The notes under the pieces are model-generated. The model was given only the letters and a program-made list of their open reading frames with translations. It did no database searches and was not told the origin of the DNA. Of a stretch of DNA of 35,579 nucleotides, positions 33,852 through 35,579 are shown in pieces; position 1 is the stretch's first letter; each line of letters opens with the position of its first letter. The stretch spans positions 1-35,579 of the forward strand of contig CALVID010000008.1 of NCBI GenBank assembly GCA_944329355.1. Reading direction: 5' to 3'. This DNA comes from an uncultured Bacilli bacterium. GTDB taxonomy: Bacteria > Bacillota_I > Bacilli_A > RF39 > UBA660. Position numbers and translations under genes: made by a program.

Positions 33852-34358
33852 ATGACAAACGAAGATATTTTAAATCAAAGGTTAAAAATGGAATTTCAAA
33901 ATCCAATTTATGATATTCTAGACGAAGCCATTATATATACTATGAACAAACATCATTATAAAAAATATGATCTTGTCAAACTTATAATGATGATATATAA
34001 AAAAGACTATTCATTTATAAGTAAAACTAATGATTATAGAGATCAGTTTCAACTGTTAGATGAATATTTTTATAAAGAATTTCATCATAGTGTAATGACA
34101 TTTTTAATGATAAAAAATATCTTAAAATTTAAAGGACAAAAAGAATATGATTCTATTACCGCTGATATAGCTAATATGGAGACTATTTTAAGAACTCAAA
34201 AGCACACTAAAGCTAAAGATTTATGCATTTTTTCATATCCAATAGAAAATGAAAAGTATAATGATCTAATGATGAACATTGAAGCAAATGATAACTTCAA
34301 ATATGCTCTAGCCATAATTTACGATAAAATTAAAAACGGTAATATCAAAAATATTTAA
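33852..34358 (+). CDS. Hypothetical cytosolic protein ahead of the prepilin gene
   Basis: A 168-residue, predominantly helical protein with no signal peptide or membrane segment and no family I recognise. Histidine/tyrosine/lysine-rich motifs (YTMNKHHYKKYDLVKLIMMI) may be part of a helical bundle. Strong GAGGGG before the ATG. It ends 18 bp before the prepilin gene, so the two are probably co-transcribed. Confidence 0.65.
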   Translation: MTNEDILNQRLKMEFQNPIYDILDEAIIYTMNKHHYKKYDLVKLIMMIYKKDYSFISKTNDYRDQFQLLDEYFYKEFHHSVMTFLMIKNILKFKGQKEYDSITADIANMETILRTQKHTKAKDLCIFSYPIENEKYNDLMMNIEANDNFKYALAIIYDKIKNGNIKNI

Positions 34359-34376
34359 TACAAAGTAGGTGATGAT

Positions 34377-35579
34377 ATGAAAAAAGGATTTACACTAGCA
34401 GAGATATTGGGGGTTATAGTAATAATAGGGATACTGTTGATATTAATTGTACCAACGATAATAAATAGAATTAATTCAAGTAGAGAAGAGGCAGAAAATG
34501 CTGGAAATAATATAATATATGATGCCGCCGATCAGTATATAAGAGAACATCCAGATGATTATCCACCAGGGAAAAGTGGTAGATATTGTATAGAGATAAA
34601 AAAACTAATAGAAGATGGAAAATTAGCAGAACCAGTTAAAGATGTAACAACAGGAGAAGATATATCAGATAAATCAGTTATGGTAACAATATATAGTGCT
34701 GGAACTAGGGATTATGAAATAAGAGATGGAGAAAACTGTGAAGCGATAGCAGCGTTACCAATGATAGATTTTAATGTAACTCCAAAAGGAAGTAGCTGGG
34801 TACCAAAAAGGACAGTAGAGATTATATGGCCAGCAATTGAAGGGACATATAAAGCGAGATATAGGATAAATAAAGGGGAATGGAAATATGTAGAGATAGA
34901 TAATAAAGTAGGAGGAAAAACCGAATTAATATTTGATAAATCCTCAAAATCAACCCCATTAGAAGCCCAGTATGTAGGAGAAGGAGGAGAAACATCAAGT
35001 AATAATATTATCAGTTCAAAGATAAATATAGTAAATGTCGATAGTGTTGCTCCAGAATGTAGTTTAAGGTTAAGTGGGACAAAAGGGACAAATGAATGGT
35101 ATAAATCAGATGTAAAAGTAGATTTTGGAGATAATAACAAGAATTTAACAGATGATTTAAGTGGAGTAGAAGACTATGGAATAAGTATAAAAAAAGAAAA
35201 TACATTTGGAAAGATAAGTAGCCAGACACAGAAAGAAGATACAGCAAGTATAACATATTATGGATATGTCAAAGATAAAGCTGGGAACATAGGAGTATGT
35301 GAAAGTACCTTTAAGAAAGATGCGACAAAACCAACAATATCATACACATTAAGGAAAATAAATAATGGAGTAGATGAAGGACCAGCGTATAGTAATCAAT
35401 GGAGTCAAAGACAAATAAAGAGGAAATTTGATCCAAAAGACAATTTAAGTGGAATAGCAAGAGTAGAATATAGTTATAATGGAACAAGTGGATGGACGAC
35501 AGAGGGCAATGTAGGCGATTGGCTTATGAATGAAGGGAAATTAGATGCTTATTGGCGAAGTGTTGATAATGCCGGTAAT
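34377..35579 (+). CDS. Type IV prepilin-like surface protein with Ig-like repeats, partial
   Basis: The frame begins at ATG 34377 (GTAGGTGAT upstream) and is still open at the window edge after 401 codons. The N-terminus MKKGFTLAEILGVIVIIGIL is a class III prepilin signal: prepilin peptidase would cut after G4, leaving F1 and the conserved E5 of the helix. Instead of a normal pilin of 100-180 residues, it goes on to a string of beta domains: first about 115-210, then VDSVAPECSLRLSGT...WYKSDVKV near 222, then KDATKPTISYTLRK near 318 with DNLSGIARVEYSYN. The repeated D-x-x-x-P start and SGV/SGI motifs mark Ig-like domains. Cysteines in each domain may form disulfides. Likely an adhesin displayed on a pilus or pseudopilus; the remaining machinery is not in the window. 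Confidence 0.85.
   Translation, partial: MKKGFTLAEILGVIVIIGILLILIVPTIINRINSSREEAENAGNNIIYDAADQYIREHPDDYPPGKSGRYCIEIKKLIEDGKLAEPVKDVTTGEDISDKSVMVTIYSAGTRDYEIRDGENCEAIAALPMIDFNVTPKGSSWVPKRTVEIIWPAIEGTYKARYRINKGEWKYVEIDNKVGGKTELIFDKSSKSTPLEAQYVGEGGETSSNNIISSKINIVNVDSVAPECSLRLSGTKGTNEWYKSDVKVDFGDNNKNLTDDLSGVEDYGISIKKENTFGKISSQTQKEDTASITYYGYVKDKAGNIGVCESTFKKDATKPTISYTLRKINNGVDEGPAYSNQWSQRQIKRKFDPKDNLSGIARVEYSYNGTSGWTTEGNVGDWLMNEGKLDAYWRSVDNAGN

Follow-up and report, generated by a model that had tools for sequence, protein, structure and literature searches.

A probable modular type IV pilin with an Ig-like stalk and a cysteine-rich head, truncated at a contig edge, in an uncultured genus of Bacilli

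The DNA examined here (the window: 35,579 nucleotides) is the entire contig C8 of an uncultured Bacilli bacterium of the RF39 lineage, whose assembly of 1.17 Mb is spread over 58 contigs. At its right end lies a real open reading frame (34377..35579, + strand) of 401 codons with no stop before the contig edge. A ribosome-binding site (AGGTGATGAT) precedes its ATG. The features of this locus, all on the + strand, are as follows.

33852..34358 (+): gene of 168 aa, the upstream neighbor; part of an ileS-side synteny block kept in a relative (G032)
34364..34376 (+): ribosome-binding site and leader; identity with the paralogue loci on contigs C31 and C23 begins about here
34377..34766 (+): prepilin signal, N-terminal helix and small pilin head (residues 1-130); from the prepilin profile and the model of an orthologue (L060)
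34773..35042 (+): first Ig-like/FnIII-like beta domain (residues 133-222); from the orthologue model and structural matches
35043..35342 (+): second Ig-like domain, PKD/SiiE-like (residues 223-322); from a model of its own and its structural matches
35343..35579 (+): third Ig-like domain, OmpL47-type (residues 323-401), cut by the contig edge; from a match to NF047446 and 95% identity to L060
34410..35579 (+): stalk common to two genomic loci, entered from upstream C8 and from C23 and left toward C31 and C53, with exact 77-bp overlaps

The initial annotation had read the N-terminus as a class III prepilin signal, and this reading holds. The frame opens with MKKGFTLAEILGVIVIIGILLILIVP, giving the signal MKKG/FTLAE; its leader (MKKG-FTLAEILGVIVIIGILLILIVP) is short and basic and ends in G, followed by F, E5 and a hydrophobic helix, as in type IV pilins, and prepilin cleavage would fall between G4 and F5. 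The NCBIfam prepilin model TIGR02532 scores 17.2 bits against a cut-off of 16.3. Pfam N_methyl falls slightly under threshold on the window pilin (17.8 versus 21.2) and passes on the relative L060 (22.6); the geopilin 9egp is a weak match to the N-terminus (E 0.0025).

Downstream of the signal, the AlphaFold model of L060 predicts a helix at residues 12-62 and beta strands at 73-141 (pLDDT mostly 76-90 across residues 51-140), followed by a beta domain at residues ~133-225 (pLDDT mostly 78-85, about 80). The full-length model, built with three sequences, is poor past residue 226. A separate prediction for residues 221-327 gave a beta-sandwich with pLDDT 79.7. In structural searches, model residues 133-228 matched Ig and FnIII folds (best Z 7.9), and the best matches of residues 221-327 include PKD and SiiE Ig-like domains (Z 7.7-8.4); Z values near 8 are modest, sequence identity within the matches is low (13-24%), and a common fold says nothing of function. 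SiiE ranked first in a search behind the Ig-fold assignment; the likeness to SiiE Ig-like, OmpL47-type and PKD domains is one of beta-sandwich repeat fold, SiiE itself being an adhesin of far greater size that lacks a pilin start. At the contig edge, residues 348-401 match NF047446 (OmpL47-type) at 41.3 bits against a cut-off of 40, an extra domain of the kind that sets modular pilins apart. With the two modeled beta domains, this match bears out the proposal of at least three Ig-like domains within the window.

How the protein ends depends on the assembly. The final 77 bp of C8 are identical to the first 77 bp of both C31 and C53, which reads as the signature of an assembly-graph fork. A second path enters the same stalk from the other side: contig C23 (reversed) terminates within it, its last 77 bp being C8:34410-34486, so that the stretch shared between the two loci is 1170 bp. 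This stalk appears once in the assembly, with no separate contig for the second copy, which fits a collapsed near-identical repeat. Leaving the stalk, C31 and C53 differ in their first 125 positions only at 78, 120 and 122; past position 125, where the linker of the next Ig domain lies, all similarity between them ends.

Both continuations are short. Joined to C31, the protein has 605 aa, with an intact frame across all 605 codons and a stop 204 codons beyond the window; joined to C53, it has 579 aa, with a stop after 178 further codons. The initial annotation was thus right that the frame is open at the window edge, although it does not run far beyond, and the giant protein it envisaged gives way to one of 605 or 579 residues, where a giant tip adhesin would have thousands. 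A giant tip adhesin can be set aside on these stops. The suggested check for a frameshift or early stop found no frameshift, so a frameshifted or degraded gene is likewise rejected. Nor is a long series of Ig-like domains supported: about four precede a cysteine-rich tail. The third extends about 11 residues into C31 and C53, and past residue 415 the C31 form has a tail of 190 residues with 18 cysteines; the tail of the C53 form has 164 residues, also with 18 cysteines. Profile scans placed the matching tails of relatives in no known family, and PDB sequence searches with both tails returned chance-level matches only. Taken from sequence and models, the predicted architecture is a leader, a long helix with a small pilin head, three to four Ig-like domains as a stalk and, at the C-terminus, a cysteine-rich head.

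Synteny indicates which tail goes with which start. In G032, a run of ileS, a sigma factor, a 208-aa gene and the 168-aa gene leads into the nudix and 140-aa genes found after the pilin in C31; because the ileS block of C8 and these C31 genes lie together there, C8 is joined to C31. The ileS-side block of G032 likewise ends in a pilin start. C23 is joined to C53 because, in both L060 and G014, the two genes of C23 precede a modular pilin, which is followed by a relative of the first post-pilin gene of C53 and by pheS, the order also seen on C53. For the window protein, the 605-aa form is the most likely, via a join that crosses the assembly fork and leans on synteny with one relative. Near codon 12 of the pilin start on C23 (L021, first 92 bases, reverse strand), five G are reduced to four and the frame is lost; the missing G may mark a genuine off-state or a gene that is broken, or it may be an error at the contig end. 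Broken contigs such as these illustrate how short-read assemblies curtail such genes.

By its relatives, the window pilin appears to belong to a genus-wide family. All 35 other genomes of the genus examined hold matches (9-29 each); outside the genus, 6 of 23 Bacilli had any match, at E 1e-6 or weaker. Its closest relatives have 572-680 aa, and orthologues of 585 and 601 aa lie complete within their contigs. Modular members as a whole span 511 to 1282 aa; the longest (G029 contig C16, L079:6263-10111) carries ten DxAGN Ig-like repeats and has a second, near-identical copy behind it that the contig end interrupts. Among the heads, one cysteine-rich type (A) occurs on C31 of this genome and in G031 and G014, a second (B) on C53 and in L060 and G017, and a third in, for example, G014 (contigs C4 and C2), while a paralogue with a related pilin start (C31:9564) bears a beta-helix head. 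A viral origin was considered and rejected, two full-length relatives being without PHROG matches. The literature on pili in RF39-like Bacilli yielded general genome papers only.

The codon style of the window pilin had been noted as unlike that of its neighbors, and the counts agree: ATA makes up 34 of 40 Ile codons (85%) versus 283 of 652 (43%) in neighbors, GGG 9 of 36 Gly codons (25%) versus 15 of 290 (5%), and AGG 6 of 15 Arg codons (40%) versus 16 of 195 (8%), with GC at 33% versus 27%. The deviation is confined to the stalk and falls away in both heads: A/(A+T) at fourfold sites is 0.86 in the stalk versus 0.47 and 0.55 in the heads (p 3e-8 and 8e-6), an abrupt change at the stalk-head junction.

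What is new here is an identical 1170-bp stalk at two loci with different heads, together with a head at the pheS locus that varies by species. The second locus of this genome (C23 to C53) has the same stalk DNA and the other cysteine-rich head. At the pheS locus, head B is found in L060 (90% to C53) and in this genome, and head A in G014, where the head is 51% identical to that of C31 and has no match to C53 at E<1e-8. The 177-aa gene flanking the pheS-locus pilin is 93-94% identical between L060 or G014 and the copy in this genome. In G029, the two tandem pilins are 99.7% identical over 1514 bp. The shared stalk with different heads and the species differences at the pheS locus argue for head exchange. 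Together with the codon-style break at the stalk-head junction and the tandem copies of G029, they suggest that the stalk has been copied repeatedly and heads exchanged between dispersed paralogues. Recombination among dispersed copies could keep the stalk uniform and, by recombining heads, could diversify binding specificity. The family would then offer a testable case in which pilus-tip specificities diversify without a shufflase.

The same observations might instead reflect ongoing antigenic variation, the forks recording conversion or inversion within the population and one expressed locus alternating its heads. The 1170 bp of stalk in common, the abrupt breakpoint at the boundary of an Ig domain (divergence after 125 bases with 3 mismatches) and the different heads at one locus between species would all be expected of such a process. 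We nevertheless consider it unlikely. Each head of this genome keeps its own downstream gene, as in L060 for head B and G031 for head A; the sole integrase in the window, at 164-1279, does not adjoin the pilin, and a search for recombinases in the open reading frames beside the window pilin and after the heads recognized none. Repeats framing the heads were also sought, with AT-rich, chance-like inverted repeats the only result.

Among known systems, PilV of the I-complex plasmids (R64, TP114) is one of the closest. PilV is a type IV minor pilin whose variable C-terminal ends act as adhesins (PMC9045228), and the window family likewise joins a constant N-terminal part to variable C-terminal ends. 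In the PilV shufflon a dedicated recombinase flips clustered cassettes, whereas heads of the window family lie at dispersed loci. A shufflon of the PilV type was rejected, since the heads are on different contigs with different downstream genes, without convincing repeats and with no recombinase recognized in the reading frames beside the window pilin or after the heads.

The machinery that such a pilin would need had been proposed as a further check, and all three components sought are encoded in the same genome: a PilB-type ATPase (C3:38596), PilC (C20:1679-3436) and an adjoining prepilin peptidase (C20:3372-4208; A24_N_bact and Peptidase_A24). A strong PilB-type ATPase is present in 22 of the 24 genus members scanned; no PilT-type retraction ATPase stood out among the matches examined. 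Shortly before pilC and pilD, at the start of C20, lies a gene fragment (L089:7-1161) with a beta-helix and a ricin-B-type lectin domain, cut at the contig start; its beta-helix resembles the C31 pilin head, and it is possibly another modular pilin head.

The assignment of the window protein to the modular type IV pilins, a kind already in the literature, carries high confidence. More than 1,200 such proteins in 264 architectures have been described, the most extreme case named having 860 residues and 12 repeats (Raynaud et al. 2021, PMC8179133); the 1282-aa relative is longer. Like PilB and PilC of Streptococcus sanguinis (PMC8179133), the window pilin combines an N-terminal pilin module with a C-terminal graft in a monoderm, with a tip position inferred; the graft there is a vWA or lectin module, and here a tandem Ig-like stalk with a cysteine-rich head. 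Two further large minor pilins that carry added domains, CofB of the ETEC T4bP and ComZ, have been proposed to bind a ligand or present one (PMC8179133); the likeness, compared by description, lies in that general plan.

By the logic published for modular pilins (PMC8179133), and by resemblance to PilV (PMC9045228), the window protein is most likely one of the minor pilins, exposed at the tip, with a ligand-binding head displayed on its Ig stalk; a role as tip adhesin is held with moderate confidence, and Ig domains with cysteine-rich tails are by themselves no proof of adhesion. Prepilin peptidase would cut the leader after G4, and the pilin module would enter the filament, most likely at the tip because such bulk would clash inside the fiber. 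The stalk would then hold the head outward to bind a surface ligand on the host, a diet particle or another bacterium. As a whole, the explanation preferred here (a modular type IV pilin with an Ig stalk and a cysteine-rich ligand-binding head, its heads recombined between paralogues) is given a probability of roughly 0.72. It would link an uncultured, small-genome genus of Bacilli to surface attachment via modular pilins.

Alternatively, the protein could be a structural pseudopilin or wall-spanning spacer in Com, secretion-type or Tad machinery, its Ig chain bridging the thick wall and binding no ligand. Among pilin models, GspG and ComGC do score best on the window pilin (all far under cut-off), and Tad-type genes are present at C3:25-30 kb; yet it is the heads that vary, against a conserved stalk and pilin, as would suit a recognition surface better than a spacer, and the lengths of modular members range widely, as given above. 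We regard a spacer as quite improbable. Less probable still is an assembly artefact in which C8 is chimeric and the C23-C53 locus alone has the stalk: C8 does end at a fork, and C23 has the same ribosome-binding site and start with one G fewer, but upstream C8 and downstream C31 are syntenic in G032 with a pilin start at the block end, and the stalk in C8 has an intact frame.

Returning to the modular pilin family, expression of at least one member may be switched. The paralogue at C31:9564 is preceded by an element of ~105 bp in which 14 G lie directly 5' of TATAAT; the window pilin itself has no poly-G tract. The element has 14 matches in this genome, and matches also occur in 12 others, every one of them from the same genus. 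This genome has 12 tracts of at least nine G: TATAAT comes next in 11, and the other runs into a contig end.

C31:9519, C31:11774, C32:136, C7:112, and on C12, C10, C29, C30, C43, C47 and C56: poly-G tracts before TATAAT in this genome

G013 and G026 also have many poly-G tracts before TATAAT, those of G013 (9-17 G) lying upstream of a family of surface-type proteins. Across the genus, such tracts precede many surface-protein genes and one modular-pilin paralogue. The distance from a -35-like box to the -10 box is 7+n bp, which would come to 17 bp with n near 10; in Neisseria, the porA promoter is a known case of a poly-G tract (PMC3639595). From these sequence patterns, the tracts are likely a spacer-length phase-variation system across the genus. 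A broader reading, in which a homogenized pilin-Ig stalk and swapped heads diversify antigens on type IV pili and at least one copy, like a large family of surface proteins, is under the control of a switching poly-G spacer promoter, is offered only tentatively. One member of the surface-type family (L160:1543-3072, contig C3 of G013) has the N-terminus MSEKRKRNIIIFSLCG...GYAAFNTLLNINGT and a C-terminal PT-HINT/intein-like domain.

Elsewhere in the window, the left contig end (164-2282) holds the tyrosine-type integrase (164-1279) and an ATPase-like gene, probably a mobile element. Between 3504 and 9382, a DNA cytosine methyltransferase-like gene, a 373-aa gene and a gene for a 1134-aa P-loop membrane protein look, judged by eye, like a restriction or defense cluster.
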